Assembly: GCA_021157845.1 (NCBI GenBank)
Contig: JAGGVU010000001.1
Location: forward strand, 1 to 42,834
DNA length: 42,834 nt
Origin: Candidatus Aenigmatarchaeota archaeon
GTDB taxonomy: Archaea; Aenigmatarchaeota; Aenigmatarchaeia; GW2011-AR5; JAGGXF01
Direction: 5' to 3'
Part shown: in pieces, positions 23,272 to 42,834 of the stretch
How positions within the stretch are numbered: position 1 is the stretch's first letter
Layout of the letters: each line of letters opens with the position of its first letter
Made by a program: the position numbers and the translations under genes
Notes under the pieces: generated by a model
Databases searched by the model: none
What the model was told of the DNA's origin: nothing
What the model saw: only the letters and a program-made list of their open reading frames with translations

Positions 23272-24375
23272 TTGTTGAAGCTGATAGTTGGCATAGATCC
23301 GGGCGTGACTGTGGGTCTTGCTATTATTGGTCTTGTACCGCCATTCGGAAAAAATGATTTATTTATCAGAACACTAAGTAGAAAAAATTTTTCTAAGAGT
23401 GAAATAATAAAGGAGATAACAAAATATGGAGAGCCTGTTATAGTTTGCACAGACAAAAAAAGGGCTTCTGATTTGGTACGAAAAATAGGCTCTGCATTTG
23501 GCTCAAAAATTTTTCTGCCAAAGGAAGATTTAGAGAAAAAACTGAAAGCAAAACTAACAGCGAATTATAATCCTAATAACATACATGAACTAGATGCTCT
23601 GGCTTCTGCGTTATATTGCTTTGAACATATACACTCCAAATTGATAAAAATAAAAAACAAAGTTAAAAATGATATAGATAAAGATCGTGTTATTGATTTT
23701 GTTATAAGGCACGGGTTCTCAGTTAATAAAGCAATTAATTTAGCTAGTTCTAGAAAAAACTTAAAACAAAAGATTGTGTACCACACAATTGTTAAGTTAA
23801 GAGATAAACAGCTAAAGGAGGAAAATGAACAATTAAAAGAAAATCTATCAATCGTAAAAACAGCATTAGAAAGACTAAAAGAAGAAAATGCCTATTTTCT
23901 GAAAGAATATGAGCGAATAAAAAAAGACATTGAGAATTATGTGGAAAGAAAGATAGAAAGAAGAACCACATCCCTCTTGAAGCAGTTATCGTCTTTAAAA
24001 AAAGAAAACAAAAGATTACAGAATGAAATAAAAAGATTGAAAGAAAAAGACAACATCAATGCTCGTTATGAAAAAATAGTTTATGTAAAAGATATGACAA
24101 AAAAACATATCAGCCCGAGTATTAAAAATAAAATAGTTTATGTAGAGCGTGTAAATGGAAATATCAAAAATATGGAAAAACTTGGGCCAAAACTGATTAT
24201 TACCCCAGATAAAAAAGCCGAGTTTCTGATAACAGAGATGCCACTTATAATTAGAAAGTTACATCTAAAAAAAATTGGCGAAGACTATTTTGTTAAAAAA
24301 ACAGACCTAGATGAGCTACAAATTAAGAACTGGTTTGTGAAATGGGTGAAAAAATATAAGGAAAGATTTAAATGA
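23272..24375 (+). CDS. DUF460-type protein (RNase H-like fold plus coiled coil)
   Basis: IVGIDPGVTVGLAIIGL ... NNIHELDALASALYCFEHI, long coiled coil; TTG start. Confidence 0.82.
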   Translation: MLKLIVGIDPGVTVGLAIIGLVPPFGKNDLFIRTLSRKNFSKSEIIKEITKYGEPVIVCTDKKRASDLVRKIGSAFGSKIFLPKEDLEKKLKAKLTANYNPNNIHELDALASALYCFEHIHSKLIKIKNKVKNDIDKDRVIDFVIRHGFSVNKAINLASSRKNLKQKIVYHTIVKLRDKQLKEENEQLKENLSIVKTALERLKEENAYFLKEYERIKKDIENYVERKIERRTTSLLKQLSSLKKENKRLQNEIKRLKEKDNINARYEKIVYVKDMTKKHISPSIKNKIVYVERVNGNIKNMEKLGPKLIITPDKKAEFLITEMPLIIRKLHLKKIGEDYFVKKTDLDELQIKNWFVKWVKKYKERFK

Positions 24376-24914
24376 AGAAAATAAAATATACAACTATAAA
24401 TAAAAAACTAAAAAATATTATAAAATTTATTTTCTTATTCTTTATTTTCATGACTCCACTTTACTTTATTTCAAGAAATATTTATTTTTTACAGCTGGCT
24501 ACAGCAAAACTTGTATTCAGCCTTTTGAAGATTTTCAGATTTCGTGTAACGTTAGATGGTGTCAATATATTAATAGCTGGAAAGACCGGATTTTTTTTGG
24601 GTGACATTGCATGGGATTGCACAGGCTGGAAATCTATCATATTATTTATATCTCTTGTTATGGCATCGCCAAAACCCCTGCGTATGAAGGTGAAGGCATT
24701 GATATTTGTGCCTGTTATTTATATTGTCAACATCTTTAGGATTTTTTTCATGTTTGTTTTAGCATCTGAAAATATAAGGTATTTTCAAATTTTTCACCAG
24801 TTTCTATGGTCTTTTGGAATGGTAGCTATAGTTTTCCTTTTATGGCTTAACTGGTTTTATCCTTGTTTTTACTCTCGCCTGATAAAAAAGGCAAATGTAA
24901 AGAAAATTGGTTAA
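24372..24914 (+). CDS. archaeosortase/exosortase family membrane protein
   Basis: DCTGWKSIILFISL (active-site Cys), VNIFRIFFMF (Arg), FQIFHQFLWSFGMV (His); multi-TM. Confidence 0.85.
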   Translation: MKKIKYTTINKKLKNIIKFIFLFFIFMTPLYFISRNIYFLQLATAKLVFSLLKIFRFRVTLDGVNILIAGKTGFFLGDIAWDCTGWKSIILFISLVMASPKPLRMKVKALIFVPVIYIVNIFRIFFMFVLASENIRYFQIFHQFLWSFGMVAIVFLLWLNWFYPCFYSRLIKKANVKKIG

Positions 24915-29398: not shown

Positions 29399-30208
29399 TT
29401 AAATAATAAGTTGCAATACAAATCCATAATAATATGTAACAACTAAAGTCAGAAAGAAACTTGCTCCAAATCTGACCCCTTCTTTTATCTTTACAAATTT
29501 TTTGCTCTTTTTTATGCGCCTTAGTTCTTCTTTTGTTATTCCATCCCATTTTTTCGAGTTGTAAAGCACATCACCTTCTTTTAGTTCTGAGACAGGTATC
29601 CTTTTTACAAACTCAACAGATTCAACACTTTTTGCGTAAAGCCAAAATAAAATTATAATTAAAGATGTAAAAAAGAAAACGCAGGATAAAGTGTATGAAA
29701 TGGTAGCAAATCCTGCCCAATCAAGTACGGTATAGGATACTAGCCATACACCAATTGGTATAAAAAACAATTTTTTATTTTTTTTTATTCTCTTTAGGAA
29801 ATCTCTTATTATATCCTGATTTTTGAGACCGAGAAGTGCAATATAGACAACCATATAAATCGCCCCAACTAAAAATAAATTTAATGTAAATGTTATTATA
29901 AACGGCATAGATCCTGATTTTATTGTATATGGAAATAAAAATCCAAAAGCTGATAAAAGTTTTGCGTCACCGCCACCCCATTGACCCGTTCTGTAAAACA
30001 ACCAACCGAATACAAGCAATATAAGCCCGGTCAGTACAGAGTTAAAAACCGGAGCTAGAAACCCCTTTTGTAAAGAAAAAATAAACCAGTAAAACAGGCC
30101 AAAAGCTACCATGAGTGTCGGTATCTCATCTGATATTTCTGTTGTCTTCAAATCTTCTATCCCAGCCAGCAGGGAGCCAATCAATGCTACAAGATAATTA
30201 AATATCAT
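29399..30208 (-). CDS. A24 family prepilin/preflagellin peptidase
   Basis: IEDLKTTEISDEIP (first Asp) and GQWGGGDAKLLSAFGFL (GxGD). Confidence 0.92.
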   Translation of the reverse strand: MIFNYLVALIGSLLAGIEDLKTTEISDEIPTLMVAFGLFYWFIFSLQKGFLAPVFNSVLTGLILLVFGWLFYRTGQWGGGDAKLLSAFGFLFPYTIKSGSMPFIITFTLNLFLVGAIYMVVYIALLGLKNQDIIRDFLKRIKKNKKLFFIPIGVWLVSYTVLDWAGFATISYTLSCVFFFTSLIIILFWLYAKSVESVEFVKRIPVSELKEGDVLYNSKKWDGITKEELRRIKKSKKFVKIKEGVRFGASFFLTLVVTYYYGFVLQLII

Positions 30209-35385: not shown

Positions 35386-35994
35386 ATGAACTCAAAGTTG
35401 GGTAATATTACCCAAAAATGGGTAACTATGCTTTTGCCGTTTTCAGGTGACTATTCTGCTAAATTTTCAGCAAGCGAGTTATCAAGAAAATCTAAAATAC
35501 CTCAACAAAGCGTTTCGAGATACCTCAACCAGCTCGCTAAGCTTAATCTGATTAACTACACAAAGAAAGGCAGAAATAAATTATTCTATTTTGATCTAGA
35601 AAAGCAAACCACAAAAATAATGTTAAATCTAATAGAAAATCAAAAAGCTTTAAGTTTTCAGTTAAAACTAAAAGAAATTGCTGTAATAATTAATGAAATC
35701 TTAAATTTTTCCGAAAGTTTAATTGTTTTTGGTTCTTACGCTTCTGGAAGTTTTTCTAAAGATTCTGACATTGACATAGTAATAATCGGAAAACATAACA
35801 AAAAACAAATCAAGAAAATAAAGCAAAAACAAATAATCGAAATTAATGAACATTATATTTCTTATGTGGATTTTTCTAAGTTATTGAAATCTAAAAATAG
35901 CCTGGCAATAGAAATAATGAAAAATCATGTCTTATTTGGTGATATTTCAAAGATTGTTGATATTTTTTGGAGGAGAGAATATGAACGAAGATGA
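35386..35994 (+). CDS. HTH-nucleotidyltransferase (MNT domain) protein, putative antitoxin
   Basis: wHTH SELSRKSKIPQQSVSRYLNQLAKLNLI plus NTase GSYASGSFSKDSDIDIVII. Confidence 0.88.
   Translation: MNSKLGNITQKWVTMLLPFSGDYSAKFSASELSRKSKIPQQSVSRYLNQLAKLNLINYTKKGRNKLFYFDLEKQTTKIMLNLIENQKALSFQLKLKEIAVIINEILNFSESLIVFGSYASGSFSKDSDIDIVIIGKHNKKQIKKIKQKQIIEINEHYISYVDFSKLLKSKNSLAIEIMKNHVLFGDISKIVDIFWRREYERR
35398..35415. promoter_or_regulatory. 18-bp perfect palindrome plus third half-site, candidate operator
   Basis: TTGGGTAATATTACCCAA followed by AAATGGGTAA, just inside the start of the HTH-MNT gene. Confidence 0.6.
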
Positions 35995-36430
35995 ATTAAG
36001 ATGGTGTTTGAAACAGAGAAAGGGGATTAAGTTGATAGAACTAAAAGATCATTTGAGTAAATCTTATATGAATGAAGCAGATAAGACTCTTGAAAATGTT
36101 TTTTCCACAACTGGAAAATGGAAACTAATAACAGCTTATTATGCTTGTTATAACGCACTATATTCTTTATTAATGAGGTGTGGTATAGAATGTGAAATTC
36201 ATGATTGTACCTTAGGGTTGATGAAAGTATTTGATTTTAATAGTTCTGAAATAAATTTTCTCAAAAAATTAAAAGAAGATAGAATTCAGACGCAATACTA
36301 TCTTAAAGAAATTTTCTTGGAAGACGAATCAAACGTTAAAAAATTTATATTGAGATGTAAAACAATCCTAAGTGATTTAAATTCAGAAAAAATTGAAAAA
36401 ATCAGAGCAAAAATAAAACAATTAATCTAA
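35981..36430 (+). CDS. HEPN domain-like protein, putative toxin partner of MNT
   Basis: MNEDELRWCLKQRKGIKLIEL...AYYACYNALYSLLMRCGIECEIHDC...DRIQTQYYL; GGAGGAGA Shine-Dalgarno; overlaps MNT gene end. Confidence 0.8.
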   Translation: MNEDELRWCLKQRKGIKLIELKDHLSKSYMNEADKTLENVFSTTGKWKLITAYYACYNALYSLLMRCGIECEIHDCTLGLMKVFDFNSSEINFLKKLKEDRIQTQYYLKEIFLEDESNVKKFILRCKTILSDLNSEKIEKIRAKIKQLI

Positions 36431-37616: not shown

Positions 37617-38744
37617 ATGGATTTATTGATATTGTTGAATTCTATAATAGAAGAGAATATTTTTCTAATGAGTTCTTTTGTGGTTTTTCTGATTGGATTT
37701 CTGACTTCGTATGATGATTTGACTATAGGTAAAATAAAAAATAAATATATTTTATACGGTCTAGCCACTGCTGTAATATTTAACATTTATTATCTTTTTC
37801 ATGGCCCTTTATATCTCAAATCAGTTTTATTAAATTCTTTTATAGGGCTTGCAACAGGGTTCTTTTTTTACGTAGCAGGTATATGGACAGCAGCTGATGG
37901 TAAATTATTTTTTGTCTATTCATGTTTAGTTCCATTATCAATATACAAACTTGGCTATGTTAATTATTTTCCCTCTTTCGTTCTTCTGTTGAATACATTT
38001 TTGCCTGTTTTCTTTTTTCTTTTCTTTAATCTTTTGCTAAGAACAAGTTGGAAAGAAAAGATGCATGTTTTAAAGGGTATTTTTCGCCCCAAATTTTTGT
38101 TTCTTTTATTTCTGATTCTTTTTTCATTCCAATGGCTTTTTCCCTTGGTTTTTAAGATACTTCACATACCAGCAGATTTCAGCATCCTAATGATATTCAT
38201 GGTATTTGCAACTATCGGTATTATGTTTTATATTAGAAAATATCTATTTCATTTTGCAATTAGTTTTGCTTTGATAAGAGTTATTTTTGATTTTCAGAGC
38301 ATTTTACATATATCATTTTGGCTCGCCTTTCTAAAGGTTTTTATTTTTGCCCTCTTTTTAATACAGTTTTTATTCACACTTGCCCAGCTAAAATTTTCTA
38401 TTCATACGGATATAGAAAAACTAAAGCCAGGTGACAAATCAGCACAAATGATAATTAAAAAAGGAAAGGATTATGTTGCAGAAACCCTTCCACCGTTTTT
38501 CGCACGGTTTTCTGAAGGTAAAAAAGATATATTGATAAAAAGTTCTGTAAGGCTGACAAAGGAAGATATAGAAAAATTGAAAGCACTAAAAAAAGAGGGA
38601 CGATTAAAATTTAAGCACCTATTAGTAGAGGAAACTATACCATTTGCGCCATTTCTGTTTTTAGGTGTTTTATTAACTTATTTTGTACGAGGCAGTATAG
38701 TGATATATTTAAAACTTTTGTTCTATAAAAATATAGTGAGATGA
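37617..38744 (+). CDS. A24 peptidase-like polytopic membrane protein with C-terminal extension
   Basis: YDDLTIGKIKNKYILYG and WTAADGKLFFVYS keep both Asp positions with GxGD changed to TAAD; C-term KLKPGDKSA...LTKEDIEKLKALKKEG resembles C-term of the 29399 peptidase. Confidence 0.75.
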   Translation: MDLLILLNSIIEENIFLMSSFVVFLIGFLTSYDDLTIGKIKNKYILYGLATAVIFNIYYLFHGPLYLKSVLLNSFIGLATGFFFYVAGIWTAADGKLFFVYSCLVPLSIYKLGYVNYFPSFVLLLNTFLPVFFFLFFNLLLRTSWKEKMHVLKGIFRPKFLFLLFLILFSFQWLFPLVFKILHIPADFSILMIFMVFATIGIMFYIRKYLFHFAISFALIRVIFDFQSILHISFWLAFLKVFIFALFLIQFLFTLAQLKFSIHTDIEKLKPGDKSAQMIIKKGKDYVAETLPPFFARFSEGKKDILIKSSVRLTKEDIEKLKALKKEGRLKFKHLLVEETIPFAPFLFLGVLLTYFVRGSIVIYLKLLFYKNIVR

Positions 38745-38750
38745 TTTGCT

Positions 38751-39272
38751 ATGGAAGATGAGGTTTTCAATAACATGGAAATTAAGGAGAATTGTGTCAT
38801 TGTTTCTGTTAATCCGAAAATATATCCATTAGAGGTTATCCAGTCCGCCGCCTATATTCTGATAGATAGGGTTTATGTCGTTATGGACGGAGATCCTGAA
38901 GAAGAGATATTCGTCCAATTAATACCAAAGGAAACTACTGATTTGCAGAAGCTTGCTTATGAATTTAATAATGAATTACTGAATTACGCTGTTTATCATA
39001 TTCAAAGTAAGCGAAATAAAGAAGTTAGAGATGCGATAGTAAAGAGAGTTTTTCTGACAAATAACGAAGATTATCGACTAGAGACTGATGTAGATATTTC
39101 TACTTCGCCAAAAGTTGAGAAACATTCCCCTGAAGATAATACAGAAAGATTGGAAGAGGAAATGGAAAAAACCAAAGATATAATCGGATATGAAGACGAT
39201 CCTTTAGGAATAGCACAGCCATGGACACCTGAAAAGGCAAAAGGCCTTAAGGAGCTAGATGCTGAAAAATAA
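38751..39272 (+). CDS. HxsD-like protein (His-Xaa-Ser system), copy 1
   Basis: VIVSVNPKIYPLEVIQSAAYILIDRVYVVMDGDPEEEIFVQLIPK...LAYEFNNELLNYAVYHIQSKRNKEVRDAIVKRVFL. Confidence 0.8.
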   Translation: MEDEVFNNMEIKENCVIVSVNPKIYPLEVIQSAAYILIDRVYVVMDGDPEEEIFVQLIPKETTDLQKLAYEFNNELLNYAVYHIQSKRNKEVRDAIVKRVFLTNNEDYRLETDVDISTSPKVEKHSPEDNTERLEEEMEKTKDIIGYEDDPLGIAQPWTPEKAKGLKELDAEK

Positions 39273-39297
39273 CAATGCAGACAAAAATAAATAAAAG

Positions 39298-39399
39298 GTG
39301 GACGATGTGGAAAAGACAGGGCAGACAAGCATGAATAATAAAATAAAGGTGGATAATGTGGAAAAAGCGGGGCAAACAGGCATGAATAAGAATATAGAA
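39298..39399. repeat. 51-bp tandem direct duplication at 5' end of HxsD-like copy 2
   Basis: GTGGACGATGTGGAAAAGACAGGGCAGACAAGCATGAATAATAAAATAAAG then GTGGATAATGTGGAAAAAGCGGGGCAAACAGGCATGAATAAGAATATAGAA. Confidence 0.9.
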
Positions 39400-39642
39400 G
39401 TAGATGAAAAAAACAACTTTGTCAAAGTTAAAATAAATACGAAAATTTATCCAGCAGAAGTGGTTTTGAAATCTGTTCAAAGTTTTGAGGAATCATGCTG
39501 GGTAAATGTTCAGGGCGATCCTAATAAGGAATTGGTGATAACGCTAAAACCAAAATCAGAGGATATAAATGTAAAAACACTTGGAAATGAGTTTTATAAT
39601 TTTGTTCTTGGGATGAGTAAGACAAAAGAAGAAGAATATTGA
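39298..39642 (+). CDS. HxsD-like protein, copy 2 (short C-terminus)
   Basis: FVKVKINTKIYPAEVVLKSVQSFEESCWVNVQGDPNKELVITLKPKSEDINVKTLGNEFYNFVLG aligns with copy 1; true start ambiguous because of 51-bp tandem duplication. Confidence 0.75.
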   Translation: MDDVEKTGQTSMNNKIKVDNVEKAGQTGMNKNIEVDEKNNFVKVKINTKIYPAEVVLKSVQSFEESCWVNVQGDPNKELVITLKPKSEDINVKTLGNEFYNFVLGMSKTKEEEY

Positions 39643-39646
39643 TTTT

Positions 39647-41086
39647 GTGGTGCAAATGGCCATAAGTTACTATGACTATCCTGATGAAAAAAAATATATA
39701 GAAAACAGATTTTTAACTAAAAAATTGGGCGAAAATAGATACCTTATAACAACAGATCATGGCGCGTGGGCAATCTTATCAAAAAAGGAATATGATTTGT
39801 TAAGATTGGGAAGACTTAATGAGGATCCTTCTTTAATAAACTTTCTTGAAGAGAAAGGGATAATTTTAACAGAGAGAAATATTAAAAAGGTTCTCAGCAA
39901 CACACGTGATAAATTCTCCCGTGTTTTCAATGGAACTTCTCTTCACGTTATAACAACGACGTTGAGATGCAATCAAAAATGCATATATTGTCATGCTTTG
40001 TCCAGGCCGATGGATGCAAAAGAATACGATATGGATGAAGAGACTGCTAGGGCAGTCGTCGATTTTATCTTTCAAAGCCCATCTAAAACTATTGGTATAG
40101 AGTTTCAAGGTGGAGAGCCATTAGCCAATTTTGATATAATAAAATATATAATAGAATACGCAAAGAAAAAAAATAGAACAGAAAAAAGAGACATGCGTTT
40201 TATGATTGTTTCAAACCTGACAATGATGACCAAAGAAAAATTAAAATTTCTTTTAAAGAACCAGGTGGGTCTTTGCACCTCTTTAGATGGCCCAAAAGAG
40301 GTTCATGATAAAAATAGAAAATATTTTGATGGTAGAGGAAGTTACGATGATGTGGTTCACTGGATAAAGGATATTAAGAAACAAAATGCATATACTTTAG
40401 GAGCTTTGCCAACCATTAGCAAATTCTCCTTACCATATTGGAAAGAGATAATTGATGAATACAGAAGGCTTGGGTTTGACAGAATAAGAATTAGGAATTT
40501 AATGAACTTGGGTTTTGCTTCTGCAAGATGGGATGAAATAGGATATACTGCTGAAGAGTTCTTGGATTTCTGGAAAAAAAGTTTGGATTATATTTTATCT
40601 TTAAACAGAAAAGGTGTTAGATTTTTAGAGGGCATGACCATTATAATAGCAAGGCAGTTTTTATCAAAAGATTCACAATCTTTTACATGTTGGGGATCTC
40701 CTTGTGGAGCAGCTTTGATGCAGACGGCATATAACCAAGATGGCGATGTTTATACTTGTGATGAAGGAAGGTCTTTTGATATATTTAAGTTAGGAAATGT
40801 CAAAGAGAATACCTATAAAGAAATTTATACATCAGACGCTGTTTTGAATATAGTTTCGCTATCCTCTATGAAATCATTTTTATGTGATAATTGTGTTTGG
40901 CAGCCATTTTGTACAAACTGCTTGACTTGTAATTATGGCCAGCAAAAAACTCTTGTGCCAAAGATGCCAGAAAGCTTTGAATGTAAAATCAAAAAAGGTA
41001 TGATTGAATATGTTTTTGAAAAGTTAACAAATAGTCCTGATAGAAAATATCTTTTAGATTGGACAAGAACAAAAAGAGGGATATAA
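39647..41086 (+). CDS. hxsB: HxsB-like radical SAM/SPASM maturase (His-Xaa-Ser system)
   Basis: YYDYPDEKKYIENRFLTKKLGENRYLITTDHGAWAILSKKEYDLL; TTTLRCNQKCIYCHALSRP (CxxxCxxC); IEFQGGEPL; C-terminal CDNCVWQPFCTNCLTC. Confidence 0.88.
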   Translation: MVQMAISYYDYPDEKKYIENRFLTKKLGENRYLITTDHGAWAILSKKEYDLLRLGRLNEDPSLINFLEEKGIILTERNIKKVLSNTRDKFSRVFNGTSLHVITTTLRCNQKCIYCHALSRPMDAKEYDMDEETARAVVDFIFQSPSKTIGIEFQGGEPLANFDIIKYIIEYAKKKNRTEKRDMRFMIVSNLTMMTKEKLKFLLKNQVGLCTSLDGPKEVHDKNRKYFDGRGSYDDVVHWIKDIKKQNAYTLGALPTISKFSLPYWKEIIDEYRRLGFDRIRIRNLMNLGFASARWDEIGYTAEEFLDFWKKSLDYILSLNRKGVRFLEGMTIIIARQFLSKDSQSFTCWGSPCGAALMQTAYNQDGDVYTCDEGRSFDIFKLGNVKENTYKEIYTSDAVLNIVSLSSMKSFLCDNCVWQPFCTNCLTCNYGQQKTLVPKMPESFECKIKKGMIEYVFEKLTNSPDRKYLLDWTRTKRGI

Positions 41087-41104
41087 AACACAAATAAACT
41101 CTTT

Positions 41105-41121
41105 GAAAAAAAGTATAAATA
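41105..41121 (+). promoter_or_regulatory. candidate BRE/TATA promoter for the repeat-peptide gene
   Basis: GAAAAAAAGTATAAATA ~37 nt upstream of the ATG at 41158. Confidence 0.5.
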
Positions 41122-41157
41122 TCAGAAAAGTCATAATTGAAAATAGAAGGGAAATAT

Positions 41158-41592
41158 ATGGGAAAGAAACTGCCAAAAATCAAGAAAACTATAAGTTCTT
41201 TTTTAACAGGCGAAGAAGGCAAGATAACCAAAAAATCTTTATTAATGGCAGGCGCCTTTCTTTTAGGAACAGCTGGTTTGGCAAAATCTGCTGCTGCCAG
41301 TCATGACCAGAATATAGCACATTCTGATTCATCATCTGTAAGTTATGCATCTGGCCAGGTTCAGGCTTCACACTCACATTTTGATCCTGCTCATGCTTCA
41401 CATTCATCCCACGGTAGCCATGGCTCTCATGGCTCCCACGGTTCCCACAGTTCTCATTCCGTTCACACTTCCCACGGTGTTCACAGCTCCCACAGTTCCC
41501 ACTATTCTCACGGTTCCCACACTTCCCACTCTGTTCACTCTTCCCACGCCTCCCACACAAGCCATGGTTCTTGTCTTGTAACATGTACATAA
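41158..41592 (+). CDS. His-Xaa-Ser repeat precursor peptide (HxsA-like)
   Basis: MGKKLPKIKKTISSFLTGEEGKITKKSLLMAGAFLLGTAGLAKSAAASHDQ... then 19 tandem (S/V)Hx triplets and SCLVTCT; track ORF opens at 41137. Confidence 0.88.
   Translation: MGKKLPKIKKTISSFLTGEEGKITKKSLLMAGAFLLGTAGLAKSAAASHDQNIAHSDSSSVSYASGQVQASHSHFDPAHASHSSHGSHGSHGSHGSHSSHSVHTSHGVHSSHSSHYSHGSHTSHSVHSSHASHTSHGSCLVTCT
41398..41568 (+). repeat. 9-bp-period coding repeat (19 units encoding (S/V)-H-x)
   Basis: Units such as tcc cac ggt / tct cat ggc / gtt cac agc, with synonymous variation. Confidence 0.92.
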
Positions 41593-41617
41593 TCTTTCAA
41601 ATCAAGGTTTAAATAAT

Positions 41618-42834
41618 ATGACAGAAAACCCAAAGACTCTTGTAATAGTTCTAACAGAGAAATGCAACTTAAAATGTCCTTATTGTAGAGCTAGTGGTGG
41701 AGAAGGAACAAAAAAATTAAATTTTAATTTCATAAAAAAGGCTATAGATTATTTTATAGAAAAGGGATATGATAAACCATATATTCGTGTCAATTTTTAT
41801 GCAAAAGGAGAGCCAACTACGGAATTTAATTTAATGAAAACAACATATAAATATCTACAGTCAAAAACTGATAAAATAAAAAGTTCTATATTTACTAACG
41901 GAGTTTTTTCAAAAAAAATAGCAAAATGGTTATCAAAAAACATTGACATGATAGATATGAGTGTTGATGGTTATCCAAAAATACAAAATAAGCAAAGACC
42001 ATTAAAAAACGGAAATGCAAGTAGCCCAATTGTTGAAAAAAATATAAAATACTTTATAAGGAATGGAAATTATCTCAGAATAAATTCTGTCATAACGAAT
42101 TTTTCTGTTCATAAACAATCTGAGATACTAAAATATTTTTATTCTCTTGGTGTGAAAAAAATAATTTTTACCCCAGTTGTAATTGAAGGGAGCTGTATTG
42201 AGAATAATATACAATATTTAGATAGAAAGGTATTTTTAGATAATTTTTTAAAAGCAAGAGAATTGGCAGAAGATTTTTCAATTTCTCTTACATCAGGATA
42301 TCGTCTACTTGATAGAAAAACTAAAAAATATTGTGATTTGGGACATTTGTTTTTACTTTTACCCGATAATTATATTTCAACATGCCGTGCTGTTGTATCT
42401 AAAAATGCCAAAAATGCCGAACCTTTTATAATTGGAAAATACGATCCTATAAAAGATAAAATCTATATAGATGAAGACAAACGAAAAAAATTAGAAAAAA
42501 TAGATCTATACAATTTTTCGACATGTCTTAAATGTCCGATTAAATATAAATGTGCTGGTGGATGCCTTAGACAGTGGAAATCATTTGAAAAATTTTTTAA
42601 AACAAATAAAAATTCAGGAGAAGTCAAAATATCTGGTAAGCCCGACAAAAAGGTATGTGGTATAAAAATAGATACAGTTGAAAAATATAAAAACTATAGA
42701 ATTCAAAAGTATGAGAAAAATAAAATACCATATTTAGGAAAAAAAGCCTTTGGTTATAATTATAATATGTTTTTCAATAAATTTAAATTATATAAAACAA
42801 AGAATAATCAAAAAATTTCTGGATCTTCTTTTAT
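41618..42834 (+). CDS. second radical SAM/SPASM protein, 3' truncated by window edge
   Basis: Own translation MTENPKTLVIVLTEKCNLKCPYCRASGGEG... ending in FSTCLKCPIKYKCAGGCLRQW (Cx2Cx5Cx3C SPASM); no stop before window end so absent from track. Confidence 0.88.
   Translation, partial: MTENPKTLVIVLTEKCNLKCPYCRASGGEGTKKLNFNFIKKAIDYFIEKGYDKPYIRVNFYAKGEPTTEFNLMKTTYKYLQSKTDKIKSSIFTNGVFSKKIAKWLSKNIDMIDMSVDGYPKIQNKQRPLKNGNASSPIVEKNIKYFIRNGNYLRINSVITNFSVHKQSEILKYFYSLGVKKIIFTPVVIEGSCIENNIQYLDRKVFLDNFLKARELAEDFSISLTSGYRLLDRKTKKYCDLGHLFLLLPDNYISTCRAVVSKNAKNAEPFIIGKYDPIKDKIYIDEDKRKKLEKIDLYNFSTCLKCPIKYKCAGGCLRQWKSFEKFFKTNKNSGEVKISGKPDKKVCGIKIDTVEKYKNYRIQKYEKNKIPYLGKKAFGYNYNMFFNKFKLYKTKNNQKISGSSF

Follow-up and report, generated by a model that had tools for sequence, protein, structure and literature searches.

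The canonical bacterial His-Xaa-Ser (HXS) systems comprise HxsA, HxsB, HxsC and HxsD, and their precursors carry a plain Sec-type signal. NCBIfam also holds models for variant families, namely HxsA3 (NF038309), HxsA4 (NF038313), an HxsD-like protein (NF038315) and HxsC4 (NF038332). In the open-access literature we found no published biochemistry of an HXS product, the names His-Xaa-Ser and Hxs occurring there only in annotation and in network mentions, so prior notice elsewhere is possible. FlaK, PibD and EppA are archaeal prepilin/preflagellin peptidases of family A24 with two catalytic Asp residues, and their substrates carry a short charged leader, ending in Gly, ahead of a hydrophobic helix. 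Prepilin/A24 peptidases are not covered in a review of leader proteases (PMC10885120). Here we analyzed a 42,834-nucleotide stretch of DNA (the window), contig C7 in the 718 kb, about 91% complete genome of a Candidatus Aenigmatarchaeota archaeon. At positions 37617-42834 it carries a variant HXS locus in which a dedicated A24 peptidase probably removes the prepilin-like leader of a precursor predicted to be modified by radical S-adenosylmethionine (SAM) enzymes.

The locus consists of six + strand genes with short gaps between them. In order, they encode an A24-type (prepilin/preflagellin peptidase-like) membrane aspartyl peptidase (37617-38744, 375 aa), HxsD (38751-39272, 173 aa), an HxsD-like paralogue (39298-39642, 114 aa), the radical SAM/SPASM maturase HxsB (39647-41086, 479 aa), a His-Xaa-Ser repeat precursor of HxsA3/A4-like type (41158-41592, 144 aa) and a second radical SAM enzyme with a C-terminal Cys cluster (41618-42834, at least 405 aa, incomplete at the contig end). 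All six genes had been proposed in an earlier sequence-only reading of the window, and all six were confirmed. HxsB (TIGR03978, 432.5 bits against a cut-off of 370), HxsD (TIGR03976, 55.9 against 50) and the HxsD-like protein (NF038315, 46.6 against 41) each scored above the curated NCBIfam hidden Markov model cut-off, the first two bearing out assignments made in that reading. The conserved neighborhood that it proposed looking for was also found: the arrangement came up again in related genomes, which indicates that the locus is not a chance assembly. Two kin of the same class (G148 and G153) carry the loci of contigs L033 and L031. The locus thus shares with canonical HXS the pairing of HxsB and HxsD with a His-Xaa-Ser precursor, but differs in having no HxsC, an extra HxsD-like protein, an A24 peptidase, a different second radical SAM enzyme and a precursor whose leader belongs to what we term the EEG class rather than being a plain Sec-type signal.

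By its sequence scores the precursor appears clearly related to HxsA3 and HxsA4, though it falls under both cut-offs (HxsA4 51.9 bits, cut-off 55; HxsA3 43.3 bits, cut-off 65); a relative (L034) passes the HxsA4 cut-off. Translation probably starts at the ATG at 41158, giving 144 aa, rather than at the listed TTG at 41137. The leader MGKKLPKIKKTISSFLTGEEG is followed by KITKK, a hydrophobic stretch, 17 HxS units and a C-terminal CLVTCT. The leader profile matched positions 41164-41298 (+ strand; E 7e-19, with the window row included in the profile), and the predicted A24 cut falls after the Gly encoded by the codon at 41218-41220 (GGC). Across relatives, EEG leaders share the consensus LPKIKKxIxxFLxxEEG, then, beyond the predicted cut, KI[ST]K and a hydrophobic stretch from about +7. 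Of 39 such leaders, 36 have Gly and three have Ala at -1, 38 have Glu, Asp or Lys at -2, and 26 have Lys at +1, as does the window leader (EGKI). The archaeal prepilin-peptidase motif is [KRDE][GA][ALIFQMVED][ILMVTAS], and a Gly in the -1 position is critical for M. voltae archaellins (PMC4307647); EEG leaders match this motif at -2, -1 and +2, that is at three of its four positions. In the 12 archaeal HXS genomes the leader profile matched only one or two proteins each, mostly adjoining HXS genes.

The peptidase shows the A24 family hallmark of two catalytic Asp residues, Asp34 and Asp94, the second in a GxGD-like motif (WTAADGK), and a GxHyD variant of this active-site motif has been described (PMC4307647). 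Across 20 homologues from archaea and bacteria, Asp34, Asn42, Trp90, Asp94 and Lys96 do not vary. The window copy scored 23.5 bits against Arc_PepC (PF06819), just over the cut-off of 23.4, and 24.2 bits against Peptidase_A24 (PF01478), whose gathering score is 26.5; the latter family was matched by 17/20 homologues at E 0.01 or better. The AF2 model had a predicted local distance difference test score (pLDDT) of 87, and the best Foldseek match by probability was FlaK (3s0x), albeit a weak one (0.30). When the A24 profile was run against the sequences of solved structures it found no A24 chain, only weak Sec61-gamma matches. No NCBIfam model matched the window A24 protein, so that library does not tie A24 to HXS. 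Compared with FlaK, PibD and EppA, the window peptidase is longer, matches Peptidase_A24 weakly, is genetically tied to HXS and would act on substrates mostly with Lys at +1. The sequence-only reading had listed an embedded membrane peptidase as an oddity; the peptidase is indeed there, but it proved the most informative part of the locus.

Among the 156 genomes of the phylum, HxsB scored in 11, and in a twelfth (G002) an HxsB truncated at a contig end lies next to HxsD. A profile built from eight archaeal copies of the A24 peptidase matched 13/156 genomes, comprising all 12 with HxsB/HxsD and only one of the other 144 (P 5e-17 for the overlap; 5e-10 when restricted to the six HXS genomes without a row in the profile); in this sole extra genome (G072) the match runs off a 3.7 kb contig. 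In bacteria the peptidase was present, nearby or elsewhere in the genome, in 20/21 genomes with EEG leaders and in 0/15 with other leader classes (Fisher P 3e-9; 2e-7 without profile rows). Both states occur within Patescibacteria, where leader and peptidase remain in step. In genome G081 an EEG precursor lies 27 bases after the peptidase gene, with HxsB and HxsD about 115 kb off, so that precursor and peptidase are linked away from HxsB. What is new here, and well supported, is this tie of the peptidase to HXS and to one leader class, together with the proposal that it acts as a leader peptidase.

Several observations weigh against this proposal. The fold-search E-values for the peptidase were not significant. 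One relative (L065) has the leader and a Nanohaloarchaeon genome (that of L027) has HxsB, with no peptidase detected in either, in assemblies that may be incomplete. Only about three changes of leader label are needed on the HxsB tree; there are thus few independent events, and the P-values above overstate the evidence. The leaders themselves depart from the prepilin pattern: charged residues stand ahead of the hydrophobic stretch, no Pfam pilin model matched (a Pfam search with pilin and other leader models gave chance matches only), and +1 is mostly Lys, Asn or Arg, outside the archaeal motif, which makes the leader prepilin-like but not a class III member by that rule. This non-canonical +1 residue would be explained by a specialized peptidase. 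Finally, an AxA motif follows the hydrophobic stretch in 20/39 leaders, where ordinary signal peptidase could process the protein.

The last point leads to the most serious rival, in which the EEG segment is a recognition leader for HxsB/HxsD, signal peptidase cuts at AxA, and the A24 protein does another job, as a membrane scaffold or on some other pilin-like protein. The conserved LPKIKK upstream of EEG would suit maturase binding. However, the HxsBs of Bacteroidota, Proteobacteria and most Myxococcota pair with precursors that lack EEG, and these are exactly the ones without the peptidase, whose catalytic residues are kept throughout wherever it occurs; we consider this rival unlikely. We give far less credence to the idea that the A24 gene encodes a prepilin peptidase of general function and adjoins the HXS genes by chance. 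A24 peptidases are common in archaea, as our controls showed, and the family match of the window copy is modest, but the HXS-type A24 co-occurs almost perfectly with HXS across genomes, a separate and more ordinary A24 peptidase lies in the same window (29399-30208), the genome has two HXS-type copies, one for each of its HXS loci, and the G081 pair joins peptidase to precursor. It also seems very improbable that the repeat protein is just a low-complexity protein of the cell surface and that the radical SAM genes act on something else. The repeat does vary, since proteins with the same leader can bear TTS repeats, HSQ repeats or Hint domains in place of long HxS runs, but an HxS precursor adjoins or is near HxsB in many loci of two domains of life, and the few leader-profile matches in each archaeal HXS genome (n = 12) lie mostly beside HXS genes.

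In the reading that we favor, it is most likely the A24 protein that cuts the leader after Gly. The precursor would be made with its prepilin-like leader, and in the cytoplasm HxsB, aided by HxsD and the HxsD-like protein, would modify the His-Xaa-Ser repeats by radical chemistry, with a further change perhaps made by the second radical SAM enzyme. At the membrane, the A24 peptidase would next cut behind the conserved Gly (or Ala) and so remove the leader, leaving the hydrophobic stretch to anchor the modified, His-rich domain at the surface of the cell or to export it. In FlaK the active site faces the cytoplasmic side (PMC4307647).

Turning to the remaining maturation proteins, the closest solved sequence relative of HxsB was 5wgg, which we take to be CteB, the SCIFF thioether maturase. 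Both are radical SAM/SPASM proteins, but CteB has a Cys-rich peptide as its substrate, whereas the HxS repeats are without Cys. The HxsB of L017 (4813-6249) no longer has several of the C-terminal SPASM cysteines kept by its relatives. The second radical SAM enzyme of the window (PF04055, 43.7 bits) is not HxsC, in agreement with the sequence-only reading: no equivalog scored above its cut-off, the best NCBIfam match being PapB at 100 of 340 bits, and HxsC4 was not among its best matches. Homologues 31-35% identical occur in three other genomes with EEG-leader precursors. No HxsC (TIGR03977) was found in the window's own, about 91% complete genome at E 1e-20, and none of the 12 archaeal HXS genomes had one over the cut-off. 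The HxsD-like protein, by comparison, was detected at E 0.001 or better in 12/12 archaeal genomes with HxsB/HxsD, seven of them over the cut-off. The predicted structure of HxsD had a core pLDDT above 90, and its best fold matches were RPB11-type RNA polymerase subunits, a weak resemblance in topology at a query template-modeling score of about 0.35; HxsD and the HxsD-like protein might pair as dimers in that way.

A profile search with the HxsB alignment (A1) returned 80 loci, and a single HxsB sequence as query none; plasmid HxsB loci were used only as a canonical comparison. HXS relatives occur in Woesearchaeota, Nanoarchaeota, Aenigmatarchaeota, Diapherotrites, Nanohaloarchaea and many bacteria. 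The archaeal HxsBs form one clade in a quick tree (100 in the Shimodaira-Hasegawa-like approximate likelihood ratio test, SH-aLRT). The HXS subtype to which the locus belongs is represented in DPANN archaea as well as in Elusimicrobia, Omnitrophota, Patescibacteria and Clostridia, and paired HxsD genes and the membrane peptidase likewise occur in these four bacterial groups. The earlier proposal of an archaeal variant with duplicated HxsD and a peptidase therefore stands insofar as an HXS-type locus is present in an archaeon and its HxsB falls in an archaeal clade, but the traits are shared with bacterial HXS loci. Nor is the unusual composition an archaeal peculiarity, as had been supposed, for the variant is partly charted already by the NCBIfam models for HxsD-like, HxsA3, HxsA4 and HxsC4.

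Precursors fell into three classes, with Sec-type leaders (Proteobacteria, Bacteroidota, Nostoc), leaders that lack a membrane segment (most Myxococcota) or EEG leaders. The Myxococcota precursors of L058, L077, L078, L085, L091, L097 and L100, which have long HGS repeats and are mostly without a membrane-type leader, represent a third class of HxsB precursor. Within the EEG class the leader is kept while the repeat varies across relatives. TTS repeats follow it in L151:234-980, L154:5708-6301 and L155:4104-5741, HSQ repeats in L041:12658-14223, and an S74 domain is present in an EEG-leader protein of L035. EEG-leader proteins fused to Hint/intein-like domains were found at L150:5842-6528 and L153:4059-5366, two of them in tandem in L153, and self-processing of such HXS substrates is possible. 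The occurrence of Hint, S74 and TTS- or HSQ-repeat regions behind the same leader suggests surface proteins.

The genome also carries a second HXS-type locus (L013, contig C1, 7092-12731) with A24, HxsD, HxsD-like and HxsB genes and two further radical SAM genes, one of which bears a weak likeness to the YydG peptide epimerase (83 of 300 bits). A leader-profile search found no EEG or HxS precursor for this second locus. Elsewhere in the window, an exosortase/archaeosortase-like membrane protein (PF09721, 46 bits) is encoded at 24372-24914 (+ strand), and at 35386-36430 a nucleotidyltransferase gene (PF01909) overlaps a second small open reading frame, the two being perhaps a HEPN/MNT-type pair, with the second gene judged by eye. 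The open reading frames flanking the HXS locus resemble, again by eye, archaeal helicase and isoprenoid-lipid genes.

Tying a leader motif to a peptidase predicts both a cleavage site and a mature protein, offers a simple test for a poorly understood system, and makes HXS separable into subtypes by precursor processing. The locus also shows that DPANN archaea with small genomes maintain a peptide modification pathway of several genes, the substrates of which, to judge by the Hint, S74 and repeat-stalk regions behind the same leader, seem bound for the cell surface. On balance, we lean toward the broader view that a widespread HXS subtype, present in DPANN archaea and in several bacterial phyla, uses a dedicated A24 leader peptidase to mature its radical-SAM-modified proteins, on a pilin-like route to the membrane and cell surface.

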